Below, one piece after another: positions 4,261 through 54,500 of a stretch of 64,000 nt of DNA. The notes beneath the pieces are model-generated. The model did no database searches, was not told the origin of the DNA, and worked only from the letters and a program-made list of their open reading frames with translations. The stretch is from contig FN649734.1 in the NCBI GenBank assembly GCA_000310025.1, positions 3,973,664 to 4,037,663 on the forward strand. Direction: 5' to 3'. Position 1 is the first letter of the stretch. Every line of letters starts with the position of its first letter. The position numbers and the translations under genes were made by a program. Source of the DNA: Ectocarpus siliculosus. Its lineage: Eukaryota; Sar; Phaeophyceae; Ectocarpales; Ectocarpaceae.

Positions 4261-7200
4261 GGGAGTGGTTCCAAACAAACTGGTATCCAGACAACGACAA
4301 AAGCTCCAGCCAAGAAGGGCGATCGAGGGGATATTGTACAGCTGGACCGAAGGAGGTGTGCGGTACCTCCCGCCGAACGCGGGGAACATCTCTAATTTAC
4401 ACGAAGCAGGCGAGGCAGGTACCATAGATTTCAAGGTGGGATACATGACTAGAGACGCACACTCCAAGTTGACAATCATCGCCTTCACTGGACATATGCG
4501 AAACCTCGAGCCTCCCTGTCCAATCGCTCGCTTCTATTCGCGGCCCACTTACCCCAAAAACAAGGCACACGACACCTTTACAGACCTTGTAAATGCATTC
4601 GTTCGAAGAGCAGTGCTCTCCGCGCTCACGCACGATCCACAGATCAGCGTCCAAGACCATCAGATCGCTCTGAGACGTATCGAGCTGCGACAGCGCCTCG
4701 GGCTTTTTTTTGTCGGGCAGGGACAAAAATGGCAAAGACATCGGGGGGGGGCGGGGGGGTAGGTTCATGATGTACTGATACTGAACAAAGGGTAAACACT
4801 TACTGGATGCCGGAGATCTTGAGAATGCGGCTTGACGCACGTAAAAACACAGGGGTCCCGTAGGGGGATCCCGGAAAATGCATTCACTGAGGAGACAACC
4901 CCGTCCCCCCGGTTCAAGCTTGTCGGACGTCACTCTTCGCGTGTCCCAAATAGATGAACACCCACAGCAGCACCCACATGCACGTATGCGCTACCGAAAA
5001 AGAAAACACAACCCGCAACGACCCCAACGACGTCTTCGGCCCAGAACACAACAACCATACCATGTTTTACCACCAGCATTTATTTTCCGCCGTGACTACA
5101 AACGACCTTTACGCCTCTGCCTAAACCCCCACCACCCCCCCCCACCCCCGCCGGCGGACAAATCCTGTCAAGCTCACCTTGCTACAAAACGACCCAGGGC
5201 CGCCCCCCTTGGTCCCTTGCGGCTTCGACACGGGGGCCTGGACCGCCGGCCGCTGGCCCCCCACGTGCCCCTTCGCCTTGGGCTTCCCCTTCTGCCTGCC
5301 CCCCCCCGCCGCAGCAGCGGTGGAGCCCCCCCCCTTGCTCTTCCCGCCGCCCCCCTGAGAAACCCCTCCACCGCGGCCCGCTCCCCCCGCCGCTTTCTTC
5401 TTGTTGTTCCCCACCCCGCCGACTTCCGGGGGCGGGGGCGGGAGGATGCGGATGGCTGCGGCAGCCGCGGCGGCGGCCGGGTTGTGGTACGAGGCGGACG
5501 CGGCGGCGGCGGCACGCGAGAACGGGGACGGCGGCGGCGGGGACAGGGCCGACGATGGCACCGCGGAGGAAGACATCAACGGCGACGACAAGGGGCCCGC
5601 GCCGCCGCCGCCGCCGCCGCTGCTGCAGCTAGGGTGGTGCAGCATGTGGCCGTGAACGCCGGCGGGAGACTTGGCGCCCCAGCCGCCGCGTGCACTTCTT
5701 GGTGATGTCACTGAGGAGAAGGATGGTCCAGCTCCTGCTTGAGAGGCGGCACCGGCCCCGGACGACGACGCCGGCACCACGTTCTCCACAAGATCCTGTT
5801 TTGGCGGGGGACGGACCGACGGACGGACGGACGCATGATAAGGAGTTCCAGCGGGGGATGGACGGCAAAACAGGGTTCGCCCGCACCGTCACCACTCACC
5901 AGTAGACCACGCTTCACAACGAGGGACGGAAAAATAGCAACGGCGGTGCCCACGGTGCCGATCAGCTCAACCCGCTTCTTTTTTCGTTTTCCAGGTGTCC
6001 ACACGCATAAGCAATCCGATATCTCGACTCTTTCACCGCAATAGTTCAGCGTGCTTCCCGCATGCCCACATTGACCCCCCCCCCCTCCCTGCTGCTCGCA
6101 CGCTTAAAAAAAATGGGCAGAAAACAATCAACAACACCGCTGCACTGCTGCCGCCTGTCGTCAATAACGCCGCCTCCGCCGAAACAAAAGCTCTTCTCGC
6201 CTGCGAGTTGAGAGGGGGGAACAAGCCATGGTTCGCGGGTCCCGGCGTCCCCTTGCCTCCCCCTCCCTCTCCTCCATCTCCGCCCGCCCCGCTGCTCCGA
6301 CGTGCCGAGCGAGTGAGGTCCGACTGCGGCGTCCAGGAACGGGCGAGATGAAGCATCGTAGGGAACGGGAAGGGCATCGGGCGGAACGGGGTGAGGAATC
6401 CCATGTGTTGCGTGAGGCGTTTCGCGGAACGAGGCACATCGACGGGACACGGGACAGATGAGGCATCTAATGGAACGGGAAAGGCATCGGGCGGAACGAG
6501 GTGAAGGGTTTCATGGGACGGGTGAGGCGTTTCGCGGGACGAGGCGAGGAACTTCCACGGGACAGGTGATGCCTCGGACGCGACGCGGTGAGGGATGTTT
6601 TTCATGGGATGGACCGCGCAAAAAAGGAACAGTATTATTTATGCCGAACATGAGCCAGTCAGGACCTTCCATCGGATCTGTATGGGGGTACGAGAGGAAG
6701 CACCACACACCAACAAGGAATCGGGTCATTGCTGCTCGCGATGTGGAATACAAAAATGCACCCTCGAGAAACACCAAGAGAAAAGCGAAGAAAAGCCGCC
6801 GGTCTCTCAATCGAAAAGAGCTTGGAGAGCAAGAAGGCAACTCATCCATCTGCATGCTTAGACCCTGCCGCCAGTATCACCACGGCGCGTCTCTCCGTCT
6901 GCCGGCTGACGCAGACATTCACACACCCGTACAAACACCTTCACCTTCCGCCAAACACCTCTCCTTTACCAACCACTGCTGTGCCCGCCACACACGTAGT
7001 TGCAGTCGTCCAAGGCCCCCCGAGCAAGCTGAACAAAACACCCTCTCAACCACCCAGAGCCCGCCACACGCCCAGCACACACCTGGGACCCGCTGCCTCC
7101 CGACAGCTGCAAGAGGCTCAGGGCCTGGTCGATGTCCTTCCTGCTCCCCGTCGTCGGCTCCGGCGTGGCGAGGAACGGGTCGTTCATCAGCGACTCCCCC

Positions 7201-41994: not shown

Positions 41995-42043
41995 GAAGAG
42001 GGCACCCTACTATAGAGTGCCCCGATGCAAGAGGGTGCCCTCT
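41995..42043. repeat. 13-bp inverted repeat
   Basis: AAGAGGGCACCCT at 41995-42007 pairs perfectly with AGGGTGCCCTCTT at 42031-42043 across 23 bases. Confidence 0.85.
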
Positions 42044-42542
42044 TTTACCATTATACGTGGGGCCTCCGATATAAGACGGTCGAGGGCCTTTGTCACACCA
42101 CCCTCTTAAAACGGGGCCACGACTGCTGTGCCGACAAACGCTCGATCGGTCACAGCAGTTGAATGTACTGTCGTGGAATCCCAGGAGGATGGAGGTAGAT
42201 CAGAACGCTTTTTTGGTGTGAACAACAACAAAAACAACACCGTTTAGTCGATAGGGTGTGGTATCTTTGTCTCTCCTGCAATTCTTGAAATTCCAGCAGT
42301 TTCGTCTGGCGCTCTGTGCACAACTTTTGTAGAAAGCAAGCAGCGCGGCGTTCTTCGAAAGCATAGCTGGATACCGCTGATCGAACGATGTATTTGGCAA
42401 CTCGATTATTTCTCTCTTGAGGGCGCATAGCACTTTTTGCTTCAGTCAGTCGTGATCTGGATTCGCATGTATTGGCGGAGTGGTTCGGCTGTACCACACA
42501 ACCCACGTCGCTGATACTTTTCCTGCGCAGGTTCCCTGAGCG

Positions 42543-45500
42543 ATGGCCTTGACGGATCGCGATGCCCTGGTTGCCCTGTTTCGTTCGACCGGTGGCGCTA
42601 GTTGGGACAAGAAGGACAACTGGGACACAGCCGCTGAGATTGCGACATGGTCTGGAGTCCAAGTCAACGACGAGGGCCGTGTGGTGAAGCTGCGCCTCAA
42701 GAGCAACAACCTCCGAGGTATTTTTGTATTTTTCGGCCGTCACTGCTGGCACGTGCTTCTACCTAGAGGTAGACGTGCATGACCAGCCCAAGAATTCGCA
42801 ATCCGAGAGTGACCCTTCGCGAAAGGAAGAGTTGCTGCATTGGAGCGAATTTTCGAAGCTTGGGCGGGATAGGGCCTGCAGCGAATGAGCAAACAAGTGT
42901 TAGCGGCGAGTATTTTCCCTACCATATACTCACGCATCGACAGGATTCATGCATGGAATCGGTTTGAACCACCGCCAATTCTATTGTTCTCACCTGTGAG
43001 CTCGTTATTGGAGAAGGAAAGTGCCAGTTGCCTGCTGAGAACTCCCAGCTCCCGCGGGATGGGGCCTGCAGCGAACGAGCAATTACGCAGCAGCGGGGAA
43101 CAGCAAACATTTCTCCCACCTTTTCTAGAACACATATTCGCCTACGCGTAGCGAGTAGGCTTGTAGGGGCGAGCCGCACAACTCTCGAGTAGTAACTGGC
43201 AAAGCCTACGTCTCGCCTGTATGCTGGTGTGCATCCAGGGCAACCACCTCCAGCTTGCTGAGAGTCCCGAGTGCCTCGGGAATAGATCCTGCACAATAGC
43301 AACAATTTTGGGTTCATTCATTAGTGTTTGTCATGTTTGTGTAGTTGTTGAAAGTGCCATGCCAATGCGTGGGTGCCAATGTAGGTAGTCTTGAGAATTC
43401 CAGCAACAGAATATGCCCCTGCTGGCTCGCATTCCACAGGACCCATCCCGCCGCAGCTAGGGAATCTGAGCTTCTTGGAGAGCCTCGATCTCGGTATCAA
43501 CAAGTTAGGTGGTGAGTCCAGGAGATGGTTTGCATTTTTTTTATACTATCGCAGGAACAGAGTACATCAATCTCGCCGTCGCGTCGGCAGGATCGATGCT
43601 CTAGAAGCCGGGGGAATTTTTTAAACAATCTAAAATTCATTTTCGCATGCCCGCTGCTGTACTGCAAATGCAGGACACATCCCCAAGGAGCTTGGAGCTC
43701 TAACTATACTGGAGCAGCTTTGGCTGGAACGAAATCAGCTAACCGGTGAGGGTTGTGTCCGATGGGTAACCAATTATTTCTCCTTTGGTAGGCCGTTGGT
43801 CTTGCCAACGCGTACGCGGGATACATGTTCGGACACCACACCTGTAAGCTGGTTGACTCTCAACCAAAGCTCCTCCAGCTCGGAAAGGTCGCCCAGCTCC
43901 TTGGGTGCTGGCCCTGTGTAGAACAGCACGGCGACGAACCTAGGAACTACATCGTGTGATGAGGATTCTAGAATAACGGTCGCGGCAAACCAGAGAATAT
44001 ATCAGAATGTTGTTCCGGGCTCTAGACCACCTACGCACCCTCTAGAGTAGCTGTTCTAGAAGCTTCAAGAGGTTTTTTGCGATCCCACGCGAATCTCGTA
44101 TTTACCTTTGCACTTGCAGGCCCCATTCCACGGGAGGTGGGAAATCTCAGAGAGCTTAAGGCGCTGTGGCTCAGCGGCAACCGGCTCACAGGTGATTCAT
44201 ACATTTTTGTCGGTCGTTTTTCTTTTATCTCGAATTGGTTCCATGGATGAATCCCGCCGCTACGCGTAGGCTGGACGAATGTTCTCGAATCGAAAAAACT
44301 GCATCCAAACGCAATCTAACCATTTCGAAATCTACGCAGGTGCGATTCCGGCGCAGCACGGTGCTCTGAGCGAGCTATCCTGCCTCAACCTGTCGAAAAC
44401 CCAGCTCAGCGGTGAGAGACAATGTTGAAATTTGGATGTATACTGGAGATTTTTTGTTTTTTCTGGAGAATATGCATGTGTCCCGCCCACGAGCTGGTTG
44501 TTGGCCAGGTTGAGCCAGGTGAGCTTGTTGAGAGCGCCGAGCTGCGCCGGGATCGCACCTGCGCAGATATCGAAATTTTTTTATTGTGTTTTGGTGCATG
44601 CTTTCGATTCTAGAACATTCGTCCCGCCTACGCGTATGCATGCGCGGGACAGCATCATCTACGGAGACCGTCTCGTTCTAGAACAATATATGATGGGATT
44701 TTTCAATTTTTCTCGATTTGGTCTCACCCGTCAGCTCATTGATTCCCAGGTCGAGCGTTTTTAGGGCACCAAGGTTCCCCAGCTCAGGGGGAATGGGACC
44801 TGCAGCGCACGCAAAATAAGAGAGTTCAGAATGTGTGTCCCGCGGCCTCTAAACATGTACAGTATCGATCTCCGTAGATCGCATCCCGCCCACGCGTACG
44901 AGAGACACGTGCTGTAGAAGCAGCATATGTTCGGAACAAAATATGAAAGTACTCTCCCAACCTGTACGTGTAAGCTGATTTGAGTTCAGAAAGATCCTGT
45001 GGAGCTCCGCGAGGGCTCCCAGCTCCTTTGGTATCGACCCTGTACAAAGCAACGGAACAACAGCAACAACAAAATGAGGCATGGCGTGGTGAAATCGCGT
45101 GGCGAAACTTCAAGAATATTTGTCGTGCGCGAACGACCTTTCCCATCTCCCAAACCCCATGCAGGCGATACTGTATTCCGGCGTTACTTGGACAGCTCTC
45201 CAAGCTGGATTCACTCTACCTCCACCAAAACAAACTCAGCGGTAAGTGTCTCCGACAGATTCGGCGTGTACCCGTCGCACCAGATTGCATGAATCCCGCC
45301 CACGCGTTGGCTGGACCGCTGTTCTACTGTAGAAGCTTCATCACACTAAGATTCTGATTTGGTTTCCGGTTGTGCTGCTTTTGCTTTGTCCAGGGCCAAT
45401 ACTCAAAGAGCTGGGTGCTCTAACCAAGCTGACGTCCCTGTTTCTGCGGAGCAACAAGCTCACTGGTGAGAAATGTGCCAAAAGGAATGATTGCGTTGTT

Positions 45501-48500
45501 CTATTGAACACATATCCTTACATGATACCTCTATTTGTTTGGCTTCACTTTCGTGTCCTGCCGACGCCTCCCCGGGATTTATGCGTGTTCTACAGAGGCT
45601 CAAAGAAAGTACAAAAAACACTGTTCCATCTACCGAACTCACCATCTAGCTCGTTATTGCCGAGGACGAGGAACTCCAGGCGTCCACGTCTCCTAGCTGC
45701 GGTGGGATGTGTCCTGTAGGTGTGCGAGTCAAAGCAAGGCAGTTATTGAATTCGGAAGAATAAACCGACCTGTTAGAACACCTTATCACGAACTCATGGG
45801 AGAGTAGGTGTGTTCGAGAAGCCGGGGTACATACCTTTTCACTACCCCGCTAATGTGTTTGCCATTCCACGTACAGGTCCCATCCCGCCGGAGCTGGGAA
45901 AGCTCGCAGCACTGGAGAGCCTCGACCTTACGGGCAACCAGCTGACTGGTGAGTCACGATGTACAAGTGTGCGGCTAATCCCGCGTACGCTACGCGGGAT
46001 TTACGCATGTTCAGAACTCGAAAGAACGACAAAAGCTTTTCGATCTGTTTAACTCACCATCTATATTGAAGGAGAGGTAGAGGTACTTGAGGGCACGAAG
46101 ATCTCCTAGCTCCAGCGGGATGTGGCCTGTAGATCAACGAGCAAAAGGGTAACTTAGCGGGGTAAAGCAAAAAATATCCCCGGAGTTGTAGAGCACGGTC
46201 CCGCCTACGCCTAGGCGGGACGAATGTTCTAGAATCGAAAACACTGTACCACAAACGCAATCTATCTTTTTCGATATCTTCGCAGGTGCGATCCCGGCGC
46301 AGCTCGGCGACCTCAACAAGCTAACCGCGCTCAACCTTTCGAACAACCAGCTCAGCGGTGAGAGACGATGTTGAAATTTGGATACTGGCATACTTTTTTT
46401 CTGGAGAATATGCATGTGTCCCGCCGACGCGTTGGCAGAACACATAAGCAATGACGAAAATACTGTAATATAGAAGTAAGTATTATCTGTTGTATCGAAC
46501 GCAAACATTCCTTTCGGCACATTTTTCACATGTGAGCTTGTTGCGGTGATGAAACAGGGACGCCAGCGTGGTTAGAGCTCCCAGCTCCTCCCTTGGGTAT
46601 TGACCCTGGACAAAGCAAAAGCAGCACAGAGGGCGAAAACAAACCAGACTTGTAGTGTGATGAAGCTTCTAGAACAACGGTCCTGCCAATGTCAGGGAAT
46701 AGATGCCATGTTGTTCCGTCTTCTAGACCACACCCACTAGCGGGTGGTAGGCGGAGAAATATGTTGGTCAATTCTCTGCTTTTCTCGTGTTTGCTCTTCT
46801 GCTTGCAGGTCCTATCCCCCCGGAGGTAGGGAAGCTTGGAGCGGTTAAGCAGCTGGACCTTTGGGGCAACAAACTAAGTGGTGGGTAGTTAAACCATATT
46901 GCCATACCTTTATACATTTCTGCGTTGATGGATTTCCATAGAACGTGTGTCCTGCTCACGCTTGGGCGGGGTACATGCTCTTGTTGCTCTGTTGCAATAT
47001 GTACTATCAAGATTCAAATTTCAGCACCGTCTCTCACCGCTGAGCTCATTGTCGGAGAGGTCACGCCACGTTAGCTTCTTGAGAGCGCCGAGCTGAGCGG
47101 GGATCGCTCCTGCGTAGGTGCCTGAGCAATTTAGTTTGCTCTGCGGTTTTTTCGGTTCTAGAACATTCGCACCGCTTACGCACAAAAGGAGTATTGCATG
47201 CATAACTCCCACCCACGCGTTGGCAGGACCACTGTTCTACTGTAGGAGCTTCATGACACTGTACTGCAGGTTTTATTTCCCCGCTGTGCTGCTTTTGCTT
47301 CGTCCAGGACCGATACCCAAGGAACTGGGAGCTTTAACCAAGCTGGCGTCCCTGTTTCTTCGCAGCAACAAGTTCACTGGTAAGAAATGTTTGCGTTGTT
47401 CAATAGCACGCATAATACATACTTCATGATATTTGTTCCCTTCGCTTATGTGTCCTGCAAACGCATCTGCGTGGTTCATCAAGAAACCCAGTCCTTATCA
47501 ACCGTAAAAAAACTAGTACTTGTGAGGTTGTTGATGGCGAGCTGTAGCATCCGTATTTTGTTGAGAGCTCCAAGCTCCGGCAGAATGGAGCCTACAAGAG
47601 GATGAGCGAATACGAAGTAAGCGGGGAATGAGATGAAAAAAACACATTTCGTGTGATGCAGCTTACAATTGTCCTGCCAACGCGTACGCGGGACAAGATC
47701 TACGGAGATCGATCATTTAGAAAAAGAGAGCTGGTAGTATGTATATGTTCCCCGCTAATTCGCAACGCGCTTCTGCTCGCAGACCCCATCCCACCGGAGA
47801 TGGGAAACCTGTCAGCGCTACAGCACCTCGAGCTTCAGAACAATCAGCTGAGCGGTGAGTTACTACACAGGCAAAGTTTTCCGACCAGATTTCTTGATCA
47901 ATTCTGCCGATTCGTACGCGGGACACATGTTCGGAAAATAAACGTCCACCTCGACTCTAACCTAGTTGACGCTCAACCAAAGCTCCTCCAGTGGGAAAGG
48001 TCGCCCAGCTCCTTGGGTGCTGGCCCTGCACAACGCAGCACACGGCGACGACCAGAATAACACGACCGGATGATGAGGCTTCTAGAACAACGGTCCAGCC
48101 AATGTCAAAATCAACATGTTGTTCCGGCTGCCAAACCACCTACACTCCCACTGGGTGAGTACCGGTTCTAGAAGCTTCGAGAGGATTTCCTGCAATTCCA
48201 CGCTACATTCGTATTTGCCCTTGCGCGTGCAGGCCCCATCCCATCGGAGGTGGGAAATCTCAGAGAGCTGAAGACGCTGTGGCTCAGCGGCAACCAGCTC
48301 ACAGGTGATTTATTCTTCTACATTTAGGGCGGTCGTTTTTCTACAATTGGTTCCGTGGATGAATCCCGCCGCTACGCGTAGGCGGCACGAATCTTCTAGA
48401 ATCGAAAACATTACACCCCAACACAATCTAATTTTTTCGATATCTACGCAGGTGCGATCCCGGCGCAGCTCGGCGCTCTGAACGAGCTAACCTGCCTCAA

Positions 48501-51500
48501 CCTGTCGAAAAACCAGCTCAGCGGTGAGAGACGATGTTGAAATTTTGATATATACTGGAGCACTTTCTCTTGTTCTGGAGAATATGCATGTGTCCTGCCC
48601 ACGAGCTGGTTGTTGGACAGATTGAGCCAGGTTAGCTTGTGGAAAGCGCCGAGTTGCGCCTGGATCGCACCTGCGTAGACATCGAAATAGTTAGATTGTG
48701 TATGTGGTGCAGTGCTTTCGATTCTAGAATATATACGCGGGACACATGTTGTAAAAGCAGCATATGTTCGAAATATGAAAAAACATGTACAGCCCCACCC
48801 TATACCTGTGAACTGGTTGGAGTTAAGAAAAGGCCTGTGCAGCTCTGTGAGGTCTCCCAGGTCCTTGGGTATCGAACGTGCACAAAGCAACATTACAACA
48901 CAACAGCAACAATAAAATGAAGTATCGCGTGAAGCTTCTGTGATGTATCCTACGTACGCAAACGACCCTTCCCATCCCCCAAACCCCATGCAGGCGAAAT
49001 CCCGGCGTCGCTTGGGCAGGTCTCCAAGCTAGACTCACTCTATCTCCACCAAAACAAACTCAGCGGTAAGAATCTCCCATTGATTCGGTGTGTACCCGTC
49101 ACACCAGGTTGCTTGAATCCCGGCGATGCGTACGCGGGATACATGTTCTAGGCAGGGAGTGAAGTTGTGTGTTCTAGAAATGTGAAATCGTCGTGATGCG
49201 ACCTTTTCAAGTTTTCTGCTGTTGAACTGAACAGGATACATCCCCAAGGAGCTAGGGTCCCTGAGCAAGCTGGGGGTGCTTAGGCTCAACAACAACGACC
49301 TTACGGGTAAGGAGTGCACCAAATTTATCATATATATTCTCCTTTGTTGTCGTTCTCTTTCGTAGACCGTGTGCCTCGCCATCGCGTTGGCAGGACCACC
49401 GCTCTAGAAGGTTCCACGCCACAATATTTTTCTGATTTGTTTCCCCGCGGTCCTGCTTATGCTTTGTCCAGGGCCAATACCCAACGAGCTGGGAGCTCTA
49501 ACCAAGCTGACGTCCCTGTTTCTTGTCTGCAACAAGCTCACTGGTGAGAATGTTCCAAAATTAATGTTTGCGTTGTTCTATGCAACACATAATGCTTACC
49601 AGTACATGTTTTTTTTTCTTCGCTTATGCGTCCTGCCCACGCGCAGGCAGGACGCACGTTCTAGAATCGAAAACACGGCACCGCAACTCTAATACTTCGA
49701 TACCTACTCAGGTGCGATCCCCGCTCAGCTCGCCGCTCTCAAGGAGCTTACGCGGCTTCTCCTGTCCGGGAACCAGCTCAGCGGTGAGGGACGGTGGTGA
49801 AATTTGAATGTTAAATATTTTTACTGCGACATGTGCATGTCCGTGGGTGGGACACATACTGTACTCTCGAGCGCCCCGCGATAATCATTTTCCAAGATGT
49901 CCGCCGAATCTTAAGTTACCTGTAGACTGGCTGAAGCTGAGCGCCAGTTTCTGCAGCGCGCTGAGAGCTCCCAGCGCCTCGGGGATAGACCCCGCACACG
50001 TACAGCAAGAGAAATACAGCATCGAGAAGTTTCATATCATATGATCTTATTTGTTTTTAAGATCTTGTCCCGCCAAAGCTTCTGGAACATGGACGGCCTA
50101 CTGGCCAACGCGTGGGTGTGCAGGTGCAATAGAAGCTGCGGGAAAACACGTTGTTTTGCACACGTCTTTCACTGCAGGTCCCATCCCACCGGGGCTGGGA
50201 AAGCTACCATCGTTGACATGCCTCAATCTCAGGGAAAACGAACTCAACGGTGAGTCAGACCGTTCGCGTGGTACGCGGTTTTCCCCACGAAAGGATCAGG
50301 ATCAGTCCCACATATGCTGCGGGTGGGACACATACATATCCTCCAGAAAAAAAAGTACTCCAGTATGAATCCAAATTCCAACACGTCTCTCACCGCTGAG
50401 CTCGTTGTTGGACAGGCTGAGCCAGGTTAGCTTGATGCGAGCGCCGAGCTGCGCCGGGATCGCACCTGCGTAGACATCGAAATATGTAGTTAGAGTGTGT
50501 TGTGGTGCAGTGTTTTCCATCCTAGAGCATTCTTCCCGGGGCGACTAGGCCGTTCATGCTGGAACAGCTTTGGCGGGACAAATCCTTCTCCAAATGATTC
50601 GAATGGGCGGGACTGAATCTAGAAATTTGATGCTTTTTGTCACTCTCGGTGTTCCACTGTGCTGCTTTGGACAGGCCCGATACCTCATGAGCTGGGGGGG
50701 CTCACTGACCTGAAGGTGCTTGGGCTGAGCAAGAACAAACTTACAGGTAAATCGGCAGATACTGCACATTTATATTGGTTATTGAACTTGCCGGACGGTG
50801 TCCCTTGAATCATTTAGAAACAAAGCATGTATCCCACCCACACGTGTGCGGGACACGATATCGGAGATCGATACTGTACGTGTTCTAGTAGCCGCGGGAC
50901 ACACGCCCTGAAATATCTAAAGTTTGACTATTGTATTACATGTGCTGCAGGTCCCATTCCCCCTGAGCTGGGGAACCTTGGTGCTCTGAAAACGCTCGAC
51001 CTGGGGACCAATGAACTGACAGGTGAGAAGAAATCGTGCACAATTGAACGCTCATTTTTTATTTTCTATTTAGACCAAGACGGTCTCCGTAGATGCTGCC
51101 CCGCCATCACGTGGGCGGGACACATGCATACATGCGTTCTCCAGAAAAAAAAAAGTATTCCATTACATATCCAAAATTCTACATCGTCTCTCACCGCTGA
51201 GCTAAATTTAGTTGTTCGACAAGTTGCGCCAGGTCAGCTTGTTGAGAACGCCGAGCTGCGCCGGGCTCGCACCTGCGTAGATATCGACATAGTTAGATGT
51301 GTTTATGGTGCAGTGTTTTCGATTCTAGAAGCGTTCGCCCCGCCCAAGCACTATCGGGGAACAAAAATATTGTTTCTCCCGCCTTTCTGTAGTACCTACT
51401 TGCATACGCCAGGTCAGTTCTGAGTTGTGCCATGAAGAAACCAGGGCAATCTGCAGATGCGACGTGTCGATCTGTTTCGCCACAATGCGTTAGTTTGCGT

Positions 51501-54500
51501 TGTCATTGTCCCGTTTCACCTGATTTTGGAGTCAACACCTGGTAGACATACGTAGTTGTAGCCCCTTTATTGCTCCATATTTGACTCAACATATTGGGTT
51601 GGAAGCGTGCCAAAGAAAACCATTGTCGGCATGGTCGGGCGCTGAGCCATATGCCCTCGAATGAAATGCTTTAAGGGTCTAGCATGTGCGGGAAGATTGA
51701 TCAACAGATGAATGCTGGAATTAGAGCTTGTGTTTTGATGCAGGGACAACTATGTATTTTGTCCTCACACGGCACATCGTGGGCTCACGCCGACAATTCC
51801 TCACCATCTACGGGAATTACTGCGATGATGTTCCTGAGTTGCTGAACTGTTTGCTTCTCGATGATGCCTGCGAGCGTTAACAATAACCAACTATTTGCTA
51901 CCCCTGTGTACAACGGCCAGACGTCTCTCTCTAACATGGTTGTCGGCATTTACATCTGTTTGGCTATCCCGATGTGGTCGTCAGGTCTCTGGGATCACAC
52001 ATGCAATGCGGAGGATGTCGGGCAGGAGAGAGCCAAAAGGATGTCAGGTATGCCTACATGCAGCATTCTCTACACGACCATCGTGGGGCTACGGGTGGAC
52101 GCCAGATATATTTGGCGCGGATTTGCATATCTCGTTTAATTGCGAACGGGTGCATATCGCACGGCAGCATCATATACCTCGTCACTGGCTAAAACAACGA
52201 CCAGGCCCCTTCCATATGTGCATGCTCTGCACTACTCGGTAGGTGGAACCATTCCCAGTGAGCTGCGCCGCCTACTTGAAACCTTAGATGGTGCAGACAC
52301 GGACCTTGGGGGTAATCCATGGGCTGAGCCGCCAGAGTCCATCGTGACCAAAGGCATGGAAAGCATCAGAGGCTATTTCGAAGACCTGTATGCTGAACCC
52401 TGTCGCGTCCAGCGCCGCAGCGTCAAGGTTGTTCTTGTCGGGCAGGAAGGCGCAGGGAAGACGAGGTTAGTGAGTCGCGGCTGTTGATTTTGGAGGGCCT
52501 ACTCATTTTACAGGCATGGCAACACGCGGCAGCGACTAGCTTTGGGTTGATGTTGCCCCGTGAGCAATTACGTTCCTACGTCTTTTTTAACGCCACGATT
52601 GAGCAAAGGGGCGAGAGCCAAAGACCCGCAGAACTAGACGGGCTCAAGCATGCAAGGATATTTGGCTGCAACGCATTGTGGTTCAAACGCGATGTTCTTG
52701 CGTGCTTCGTGATTTCGTGCTCCGTTACGATTTTTTTGTCCCAACATCAAAAACGACTGTGTCAGCGATTTCGGCGAATAACATGTACCGCTGTACGCCT
52801 GATCACCCAATCCCGATATACCCTCTATCGTGCGTGTTGTCCATTGTTGGACACTCGCGTCTCTTTCATGCAGCTTGCGCCAGAGCATGAAGGCCAATGA
52901 AGCAACTCCCACGGGCGAGTGGAAGGAGGAGAGCACGGTCTTTGCAGACGTGCAACCCATGGAGCTAGAAGGCTCATCCGTGCGGGTTTACGATTGTGCT
53001 GGACAGGTAACAAGTCATTGTTGATGCTGATTGGAGTTGTAATCGCTTGATTGAGGCGGTGCTAGAGGCCGCTGCCCAACATCACCCGCTGTGCGCCCGA
53101 TGGGAGAATATTATCCATGAAGCATATATTTCTTGCGGTGCACTCTTACCCTTCCACTCAAAATGTTTTCCTGTCTGTCCTCCCCAAGGAATGTTCTCCC
53201 ACACAACCCTGAAACGTTAGGGCTCTGGTGCATAGTATCATATCCACAATAAATGTAACGCTCCACCACCGGCCTGTCATCACACGTATCACCGGGGTTG
53301 TGTATAGCAAGTTGCATCAACATGTTGGGGTTTCGGGATGCACCGAGTTTCGTGTTCGTCTCGGTACTTGCTTCAGGTTTGTTTTTGCGTTTGTGCTCAA
53401 TTGGCCGCGACGGCGACGGAAAAGCTGCCGACGCCATTTTGGTGGGTTGCTTTGGCCAGCCTCGAACAAACATTTACCAATCTCGCCGCTTTCGGCGCAC
53501 ACCCTTGCGGGTCTTCCTTAAGCGCCCGCTCGTTTGCGTGTTGAGAGCGCCCTGGTGGAGAGGACCCAGTGCGACTATGGTCCCATGTCGTCTTGTTCGG
53601 GATAGCTGGCACGAGCGAGACAGCAATGAGCCGAAGTGGCCACGGTAAACGCCTTTTCCGGAGCAAAGGGGAAGTGGGGCAAAGACATCTTGTTTCGCTA
53701 AAGTAGGGGGTGAAGCTGATTGTTTTTCGTGAGGGGTAAGTGAGTACCACAGACAGCGTGAGTACCACTGTCTCAACGCGTAGCTCACGACGAACTAAAG
53801 ACAAACTTGAAAAATGTCACTTGAAACTTAGATAATACAGAATATTCCGTCAATGGTTTATGTCATGCGCCTCATGGGCTGGAGGCTTCGACATGCCTAG
53901 TGTTGTCTGGTGGGGGGTACCTGCGACGCATTTCCGTGGTGTCGATTCGGAGGTGGTTCGGGTCTTGGAGCGCCTAGAAGGTTTCGATGGGGACTGTGCA
54001 CAAATGTCTGGGAGGTACACTCCTGAACTATGAGAGACCATGTTGTTTATTTATTTGGACATTCAACTGGCATACATGGACGCTCGGCAGGTCGGCTACA
54101 CGGGTCTGCTGCAGATGTTCCTAACGCCACGGTCTGTTTGCGTGCTAGTGTGCAACGTGGAGGCGTTCGAGCAGCGGCTAGGTAGCGAAGCCAATGGTCA
54201 GGTTCAGGAAGACTGTCGCAAGCTCGAAGAATTGCGCGTTTGCCATTGGCTGCGATCCATCTCTCGCCGCGTGCCTTACAGCGATGTCATCCTCGTCGCT
54301 ACCAAGTGTGACTTGGCGTGCGGGAACGCCGGGGACATGGGCAAGAGACTGGCGCATGCCTGTCGATTGTGGCTTTCGAACTGGGTGCGAAATGGCATGC
54401 AGCCCGTTCGGTTGGAGCACGGTGTTTGCCTGACGAGCTGCTGCCCGGCAGCAGTTAGCGAGCATGGCGAGAGTAGCCCTGGGAACCACTATGCGAAGGG

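Follow-up and report, generated by a model that had tools for sequence, protein, structure and literature searches.

Palindromic joints and mixed orientation of leucine-rich-repeat exons in a ROCO-like candidate receptor gene of the brown alga Ectocarpus siliculosus

The candidate receptor gene and its exon array

The stretch of DNA analysed here (the window, 64,000 nucleotides of contig FN649734.1 of Ectocarpus siliculosus, assembly GCA_000310025.1, forward-strand positions 3,973,664 to 4,037,663) harbors a ROCO-like gene, a candidate immune receptor, whose leucine-rich-repeat (LRR) exons lie in both directions. All the evidence comes from this one genome assembly, and the genome-wide searches covered 189 Mb in 492 contigs. 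A nucleotide hidden Markov model (HMM), seeded with 16 sense exons and then iterated, detected 37 LRR modules at E<1e-3 in the window, all within 42989-51281 (20 on the plus and 17 on the minus strand). With a weak minus-strand module at 42820-42881 (E 0.046), the array totals 38 modules, 20 sense and 18 antisense, the same number that a previous sequence-only reading of this DNA had counted. Nineteen of the 20 sense modules are 72-nucleotide exons flanked by AG and GT and devoid of stops, the exception being the frameshifted module at 45159-45246. By the same check, 7/18 antisense modules are intact (those starting at 42989, 43839, 44723, 44966, 47033, 47518, and 50389), in agreement with the "about seven" of that reading.

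When the start exon (42543-42717), the 19 intact sense exons, and the exon beginning at 52243 are spliced, a stop-free product of 589 amino acids is obtained, whose C-terminal end is VLVGQEGAGKTR. The start exon leaves one base over, so that the LRR exons are symmetric and of phase 1, as had been read. The start exon and the first Roc exon each match once, on the sense strand (tblastn, 42001-52500); the claimed absence of antisense counterparts is thus borne out, and splicing presumably joins sense exons only. The features of the gene and its array are the following (intact sense exons from the exon check and the spliced model, antisense modules from the HMM):

42543-42717, plus: start exon (MALTDRDALVALFRSTGGASW...NNLR), one base over at its end
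42804-51272, unstranded: the whole LRR exon array, 38 modules of which 20 are sense and 18 antisense
42820-42881, minus: antisense module, degenerate (E 0.046)
42989-43071, minus: antisense module, intact exon
43212-43295, minus: antisense module, frameshifted
43440-43511, plus: intact sense LRR exon 1
43674-43745, plus: intact sense LRR exon 2
43839-43922, minus: antisense module, intact exon
44120-44191, plus: intact sense LRR exon 3
44340-44411, plus: intact sense LRR exon 4
44486-44567, minus: antisense module, shortened exon end beside a palindrome half (by eye)
44723-44804, minus: antisense module, intact exon; its cassette is missing from the second copy of a duplicated block
44966-45048, minus: antisense module, intact exon
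45159-45246, plus: sense module, frameshift (77 nucleotides), outside the spliced model
45394-45465, plus: intact sense LRR exon 5
45638-45718, minus: antisense module, stop and frameshift
45877-45948, plus: intact sense LRR exon 6
46053-46132, minus: antisense module, frameshifted
46286-46357, plus: intact sense LRR exon 7
46526-46614, minus: antisense module, frameshifted
46809-46880, plus: intact sense LRR exon 8
47033-47116, minus: antisense module, intact exon
47308-47379, plus: intact sense LRR exon 9
47518-47597, minus: antisense module, intact exon
47783-47854, plus: intact sense LRR exon 10
47955-48033, minus: antisense module, stop
48233-48304, plus: intact sense LRR exon 11
48452-48523, plus: intact sense LRR exon 12
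48598-48679, minus: antisense module, shortened exon end beside a palindrome half (by eye)
48804-48886, minus: antisense module, acceptor lost
48994-49065, plus: intact sense LRR exon 13
49235-49306, plus: intact sense LRR exon 14
49472-49543, plus: intact sense LRR exon 15
49712-49783, plus: intact sense LRR exon 16
49916-49998, minus: antisense module, acceptor lost
50178-50249, plus: intact sense LRR exon 17
50389-50474, minus: antisense module, intact exon
50675-50746, plus: intact sense LRR exon 18
50951-51022, plus: intact sense LRR exon 19
51190-51281, minus: antisense module, stop
52243-52466, plus: first exon after the array, carrying VLVGQEGAGKT; 52466 is not a fixed 3' exon end

The motif VLVGQEGAGKT is taken here to be the P-loop of a Roc domain; DCAGQ and TKCD were seen by eye in later downstream open reading frames (ORFs). 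Since the three downstream exon ORFs gave no Pfam match at E 0.01, a Roc-COR identity is suggested by these motifs together with the family description in the cited sections of PMC11378527, where section 11 defines the family by 72-bp symmetric exons encoding one 23-amino-acid LRR each, as found in this gene, and where the same symmetry is named phase 2. The Pfam COR-A model (PF16095) was useless as a marker of ROCO loci, as its single match in the whole genome lies elsewhere. The array has no Rfam match at gathering thresholds. By eye, 9/38 window modules (4 sense and 5 antisense, at 44331, 44486, 46277, 47033, 48443, 48598, 49705, 50389, and 51190) belong to one cassette family, AIPAQLG....

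The palindromic joint and the orientation of the modules

Most spacers between modules contain a near-palindrome of ~24 bp, ATCCCGCCNACGCGTNGGCGGGAT, which was first spotted by eye in the window. Scored against GTCCCGCCNACGCGTNGGCGGGAC, all 20 window sites with at least 16/22 matches lie inside the array, which is not an independent test because GTCCCGCCNACGCGTNGGCGGGAC was taken from those same spacers. In the whole genome, a search allowing up to two mismatches gave 66 strand hits corresponding to 41 sites, against 2 hits with the reversed pattern. Thirty-eight of these sites are located among LRR modules (34 within 400 bp of modules in the fetched stretches, two on C134, one on C29, and one on C9 at 5.27 Mb) and three away from them (one on C13, two on C26); the five stretches fetched for their palindrome (C134, C25, C80, C26, and C477) all contain modules. 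The motif serves almost as a marker of LRR arrays, and a genome-wide miniature inverted-repeat transposable element (MITE), for which dispersal independent of the gene family is expected, was rejected on this basis.

A symmetric motif model was then applied to the 253 spacers among 278 modules, those of the window and of 18 fetched module loci. It exceeds 7 bits in 172/253 spacers, against 5/253 after one shuffle per spacer, and does so in every orientation class (plus/plus 47/61, minus/minus 35/52, plus/minus 46/71, minus/plus 44/69). Trained without the window, the model places a site in 22/37 window spacers (shuffled mean 0.29, maximum 3, over 200 rounds) and two sites in the remaining 54.9 kb. 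The joints in the window are as follows (unstranded, with their scores):

43356-43379: palindromic joint, 14.3 bits
43570-43593: palindromic joint, 22.6 bits
43799-43822: palindromic joint, 27.5 bits
44621-44644: palindromic joint, left boundary of the cassette found only in the first copy of the duplicated block, 18.9 bits
44883-44906: palindromic joint, right edge of the same cassette, 23.5 bits
45293-45316: palindromic joint, cassette-free counterpart of 49150-49377, 26.5 bits
45555-45578: palindromic joint, 16.1 bits
45783-45806: palindromic joint (weak), 8.3 bits
46198-46221: palindromic joint, 27.4 bits
46418-46441: palindromic joint, 25.2 bits
46949-46972: palindromic joint, 15.7 bits
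47206-47229: palindromic joint, 24.8 bits
47452-47475: palindromic joint, 12.8 bits
47671-47694: palindromic joint, 28.2 bits
47901-47924: palindromic joint, 20.0 bits
48365-48388: palindromic joint (weak), 7.9 bits
49117-49140: palindromic joint, left boundary of the cassette found only in the second copy, 23.2 bits
49373-49396: palindromic joint, right edge of the same cassette, 20.0 bits
49630-49653: palindromic joint, 22.2 bits
50099-50122: palindromic joint, 18.2 bits
50831-50854: palindromic joint, 18.5 bits
51098-51121: palindromic joint, 17.4 bits

In a profile whose sites were preselected by score, each of the first 8-12 bases on either side carries ~1 bit (one position being free); conservation weakens out to ~16-24 bases and falls to ~0.1 beyond. 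Half-sites are conserved on both the donor and the acceptor side, as the terminal inverted repeats of a transposon would be. Among 207 palindromes of at least 9 bits, the two halves assort independently at positions 1-11 (z from -0.9 to 2.4), and a hairpin kept by covariation was discarded in view of such independence at 11/12 positions. The central dinucleotide is self-complementary in 190/207 cases (GC 165, TA 25), against 148.8 +- 3.3 with shuffled halves (z 12.4); it is kept as a matched unit, and joins therefore do not split it. At the same threshold, the 140 joints between inverted neighbors hold one site in 81 cases, none in 54, and two in 5, and the 113 joints between co-oriented neighbors hold one in 78, none in 34, and two in 1. 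Joints thus mostly retain one site, with a modest excess of absent sites between inverted neighbors; had random intron breakpoints been joined, none or two palindromes would often be expected in inverted joints.

Overall, 325 modules were found at 22 loci, 167 on the plus and 158 on the minus strand. Over 20 arrays (the two loci with one and two modules are left out of these statistics), opposite neighbors number 167/302 against a null of 152.6 +- 8.4, close to a coin toss. The strictly alternating run reported for eleven modules of the window is real and longer: it spans 13 modules (45385-48227), with a permutation P of 0.004 in this array and of 0.015 for so long a run in any of the 20. Alternation as a designed pattern was nevertheless rejected, since orientation is near random over the 20 arrays, unusual though the run of 13 is. 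The idea that spacing disregards orientation does not hold either: over the window and the 18 other loci, the median spacers are 164 (plus/plus), 163.5 (minus/minus), 136 (plus/minus), and 188 bp (minus/plus). In every orientation class, the median distance of the palindrome centre from the module is 90-93 bp on the acceptor side and 65-74 bp on the donor side; the spacers depend on class because the two arms differ in length, as expected if units flip about the palindrome.

The tetratricopeptide-repeat (TPR) exons of the same genome were taken as a control. Among the 150 matches listed, clusters of three or more hits comprise 113 hits in 22 clusters, with one hit in the minority orientation and 2/91 neighbors opposite; 0/41 palindrome sites fall inside them. 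In three clusters (C6 at 3.06 Mb, C14, and C25 at 1.90 Mb; 18 hits), several repeats share an open frame, so these tend to be co-oriented by necessity; without them the counts are 1/95 hits and 2/76 neighbors. The cassette model was accordingly not extended to TPR arrays, which are co-oriented and hold none of these sites, and mixed orientation is neither a general fault of the assembly nor a general property of exon arrays. That the mixing of LRR modules is an assembly artefact is thus hardly credible: some cassettes are near-identical, and N occurs in 7/22 module loci, but chimeric joins would be expected inside identical stretches and not at palindromes, the same mixing recurs in 20 arrays, and the window stretch has neither an N nor a module with a partner at >=90% identity.

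Some further matches were recorded at or beyond these loci. LRR modules at L039 (C29:362.5k), L040 (C9:5.272M), and L038 (C134:97k) were reached solely via the palindrome and lie outside the count of 325. Matches to a half-site plus TTCTAGAA beyond the fetched arrays (C4:4931-4934k, C30:3097-3103k, C26:4902k, C33:927k, and C459:126k) may be further arrays or isolated ends. A 39-bp stretch, GCGTTGGCGTCCACGAAACTTCAGAACTAGCGGGATAAC, lies beside the joints of recent cassettes, with 19 matches (up to three mismatches) at LRR loci, as an example at L026 ~7080-7118 and L016 ~6072-6110; in places it apparently stands between two palindromes without an exon, and it is perhaps an exon-less mini-cassette.

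Single cassettes copied between loci

The loci of the 325 modules were compared all against all, retaining blocks of at least 150 bp at >=90% identity. The resulting 283 blocks, which involve 130/325 modules, span a single module in 280 cases, are inverted in 141, and connect different loci in 246. If an end is counted as lying at a palindrome from 12 bp inside to 16 bp outside its centre, 46, 50, 58, and 66% of the distinct ends do so at identities of at least 90, 93, 95, and 97%, respectively, against a null of 6-7%. Among 331 distinct ends of blocks at >=94%, 221 are within 30 bp of a detected centre, and their positions peak at three places, 2-3 bases past the centre (45 ends), immediately before it (30), and 7-8 bases past it (32), which are the points where the conserved half-site bases stop. 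A motif-free check gave a similar picture, GCGT or its complement lying no more than 12 bp from 61% of 204 ends (blocks at >=95%) versus 17% of random array positions. Furthermore, arms matching at >=85% have a matching partner across the exon in 686/1016 cases and across the palindrome in 28/972. Similarity is thus inherited across the exon and not across the palindrome, and the unit is therefore a cassette joined to its neighbors near palindrome centres, irrespective of orientation. Such a cassette consists of a half-palindrome, ~90 bp of acceptor-side intron, the 72-bp LRR exon, ~70 bp of donor-side intron, and a second half-palindrome. Where two cassettes adjoin, their halves form a palindrome that has a self-complementary dinucleotide at its centre, usually GC and in a minority TA.

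Examples of such copies come from paralogous arrays. A 252-bp cassette is 100% identical at C11:4814678-4814929 and C15:2427091-2427342, in unrelated flanks. A genome search with it gave at least 13 matches of >=90% identity that cover half of it or more, the query itself counted, and 10 of these are nearly full-length. They lie on either strand at 8 loci; seven are fetched arrays, and the eighth, C477 at 58 kb, was also matched by the LRR exon search. A replacement can be seen between L010 and L027, where, in the coordinates of each locus, 5800-5960 and 6174-6380 of the former match 4809-4969 and 5192-5400 of the latter at 97.5 and 97.1%; the cassettes between the matched parts differ and face opposite ways, with edges at palindromes.

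These data make it improbable that LRR exons were shuffled by conventional ectopic homologous recombination or by gene conversion, with the palindrome as a passive intron element such as a splicing hairpin. Whole spacers and broken cassettes would be predicted, and the opposite was found (28/972 versus 686/1016); just 23/564 ends of blocks at >=93% lie in exons, and at many examined junctions similarity stops within a few bases of the palindrome centre. On the other hand, exchange between inverted copies would likewise preserve spacing, and ectopic recombination is the model put forward for the LRR genes of Tetrahymena in the cited part of PMC6564038: tens of thousands of equal-length symmetric exons (90-bp) over many loci, a trait shared with the present arrays, are there ascribed to ectopic recombination, possibly with a REP retrotransposon, and no palindrome is described in that part.

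The sequence-only reading had proposed that antisense exons form a silent archive which inversion could bring into the transcript. What stands of the inversion idea is the presence of discrete units in both directions, the palindromic joint, and the composition of the 130 inter-locus pairs (>=90%, known gene direction): 63 are sense/sense, 56 sense/antisense, and 11 antisense/antisense, and 29 of the 34 antisense cassettes that occur in such pairs are matched by a sense copy. There is also one apparent flip in place, in a paralogous segment of three cassettes: by locus coordinates, L026 8005-8196 and 8458-8751 match L028 4815-5005 and 5280-5575 directly (86 and 90%), and the middle cassette, L026 8212-8462, matches L028 5268-5017 inverted (92%). 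For the most part, the mixing seems to reflect cassettes copied from other loci into palindromic joints, not inversion in place.

The window itself contains a duplicated block (43803-45567 versus 47905-49642, 75-81% identity) whose copies differ by two whole cassettes:

44619-44896, minus: whole cassette of the first copy (sites 44621 and 44883), missing from the second copy (48732|48734)
49150-49377 (approximate), plus: whole cassette of the second copy (sites 49117 and 49373), missing from the first copy (at 45297-45326)

By eye, the comparison of 49150-49377 with the joint at 45293 resembles a clean insertion or excision at GC, and the joint facing 44619-44896 in the other copy has lost one half-site. 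The window also contains 41 self-similar blocks, 22 of them inverted; 35% of their 82 distinct ends lie at palindromes (null 7.5 +- 2.7%) and 10/82 in exons. The antisense exons at 44486-44567 and 48598-48679 are 4 nucleotides short, with the palindrome half directly abutting the exon (by eye); they are probably an old misjoined cassette that was later duplicated along with its block.

The fate of antisense cassettes was followed in 11 arrays in which a start or Roc exon gives the gene direction, an exon being scored as intact when it has AG/GT borders, 69, 72, or 75 nucleotides, and no stop. Overall, 103/117 sense and 63/91 antisense exons are intact. Among cassettes with a copy at >=95% the figures are 35/37 and 23/23; among those without one they are 68/80 and 40/68 (49/60 and 32/50 without the window). 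This fits the idea that antisense cassettes arrive intact, in random orientation, and then decay. Antisense cassettes would then be by-products and an evolutionary reservoir rather than a kept archive, and both the silent maintained archive and its preservation by selection were given up, since the older ones decay. In 259 close pairs, exons differ at 6.6% and arms at 5.4%, and codons with a single change comprise 566 replacement and 207 silent ones (sense and antisense pooled), with no sign of strong purifying selection on close copies. The same decay speaks against programmed somatic or developmental inversion of cassettes as a generator of receptor diversity, as the antisense exons are not well maintained; according to section 15 of Teng 2024 (PMC11378527), neither a somatic recombinant locus nor a site-specific recombinase has been reported. 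Orientation-blind joints would be a suitable substrate for it, intact antisense cassettes are present, and L026 and L028 are paralogues differing by an apparent flip, and yet we consider such a program quite improbable.

Joining of cassettes and relation to known systems

Taken together, these results very probably indicate that the array was built from exon cassettes joined at or near palindrome centres and gained, lost, replaced, copied, and sometimes flipped. Over evolutionary time, single cassettes would be exchanged in this manner between paralogous ROCO-like genes, each join being made at, or a few bases from, the palindrome centre; as either strand of the joint presents the same sequence, a cassette may enter either way without disturbing its neighbors. 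The transcript would use sense cassettes only, the antisense ones being intron sequence that would decay unless copied or flipped back into sense.

Several observations weigh against this reconstruction. No site above 7 bits is present in 81/253 spacers, inverted joints lack a site of at least 9 bits more often than co-oriented ones (54/140 versus 34/113), and 6 spacers hold two. Between 34 and 54% of block ends are away from any detected palindrome, 110/331 ends of blocks at >=94% being more than 30 bp from one, and the 283 blocks stem from copy families and hence are not independent. The flip between L026 and L028 is a single case with one edge devoid of a strong palindrome, and the excess alternation in the window (P 0.004) has no explanation in the model. 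As no window module has a partner at >=90% identity, the window array is comparatively old, and the evidence for mobility comes mostly from paralogous arrays.

With regard to the joining itself, the most likely route would start from a break or from stalled replication at one palindrome, with repair by annealing to a second one; a dedicated nuclease may or may not take part. Of 195 junction pairs of copies at >=90%, 167 differ in the outer half and 23 pair a GC centre with a TA centre; the dinucleotide is therefore not simply cassette-borne. The dinucleotides flanking the same cassette agree weakly (of 127, TA/TA 4 with 1.5 expected, TA/GC 18). A clean 2-bp target duplication fits these flanks poorly, and the GC/TA mismatches are hard to square with the strict 2-bp overlap matching of serine recombinases; neither reading was retained. 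A further 148 empty/filled candidates were set aside because repeated arms render many of them ambiguous. To us, these data suggest that cassettes are joined through annealing of the ACGCGT core, strict enzyme overlap being the poorer fit.

A plausible, though less likely, alternative is that a specific enzyme moves the cassettes, the half-palindromes being terminal inverted repeats or half-sites for a transposase or site-specific recombinase acting at existing joints. The concentration of conservation within ~12-16 bp of the centre, the matched central dinucleotide (z 12.4), the window gain or loss with GC on both sides (by eye), and the recurrence of one cassette at at least 13 places in 8 loci are in favor of it. 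The weak agreement of left and right dinucleotides and their switching in 23/195 pairs argue against it, as does the lack of a target duplication in two relics (one on C25, cut off by N, and a degenerate two-module relic on C20). The two recombinase families searched, serine (PF00239) and tyrosine (PF00589), gave one weak hit each (C16 and C76), neither beside fetched arrays, in a search that did not include transposase models; by eye, the serine recombinase hit (PF00239, L044, C16:5121400-5123000), beside a TnpB/Fanzor-like ORF, resembles an IS607-type element. More tentatively still, a dedicated factor recognising the palindromic joints might swap, insert, and flip single exons across the immune-receptor genes, acting in the germline and perhaps in somatic cells as well, in which case the palindrome would be the missing recombination signal of the brown algal adaptive-immunity hypothesis.

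The arrays share traits with several known systems and differ from each. In bacterial shufflons, several coding segments of one locus are inverted about repeated sites; these are prokaryotic, switch rapidly, and have asymmetric sfx sites and a known invertase, whereas here the sites are symmetric and many loci and evolutionary time are involved. In the present arrays, 141/283 block pairs are inverted relative to each other, and one flip in place is apparent. Integrons likewise line up small coding cassettes that come and go one at a time and meet at imperfect palindromes; their cassettes are co-oriented and moved by IntI, whereas the LRR modules are oriented nearly at random (167 plus, 158 minus) and have no known integrase. 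V(D)J recombination joins immune-receptor segments at short conserved signals, and inversion is possible; it is somatic, RAG-dependent, and subject to the 12/23 rule, while the present cassettes are known from genome comparison alone. In human translocations at PATRR (palindromic AT-rich repeats), breaks at palindrome centres are joined to other palindromes; those palindromes are long and AT-rich and the events a rare pathology, whereas the ~24-bp joints described here are GC-rich and lie about 200 times inside genes.

In brown algae, LRR exon shuffling in ROCO genes has been discussed since 2012 (Zambounis 2012, as cited in PMC11378527), and somatic recombination was proposed for the family in the same year (as cited in PMC11378527). 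The cited sections of PMC11378527 describe 72-bp symmetric 23-amino-acid-LRR exons shuffled between genes, with LRR-only loci as a possible reservoir, all of which is shared with the present arrays; its text, as distinct from figures and supplements, mentions neither antisense or opposite orientation nor palindromes. The main text of PMC12477816, on Ectocarpus transposons, makes no mention of LRR, ROCO, exon shuffling, or palindromes. No description of the palindrome or of the cassette boundary was found in the literature searched, which excluded Zambounis 2012, and novelty is therefore provisional.

The cassette model accounts for about half of the exons facing the wrong way, and the arrays offer a natural case of exon shuffling in which the joints are visible almost base by base. 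Mixed-orientation arrays number about 20. Palindromic joints, together with related cassettes that face either way in many genes, suggest how such receptors are reshuffled and where the long-proposed recombination should be sought: with a repeated, orientation-blind joint, the mechanism can be approached experimentally at one named ~24-bp sequence.

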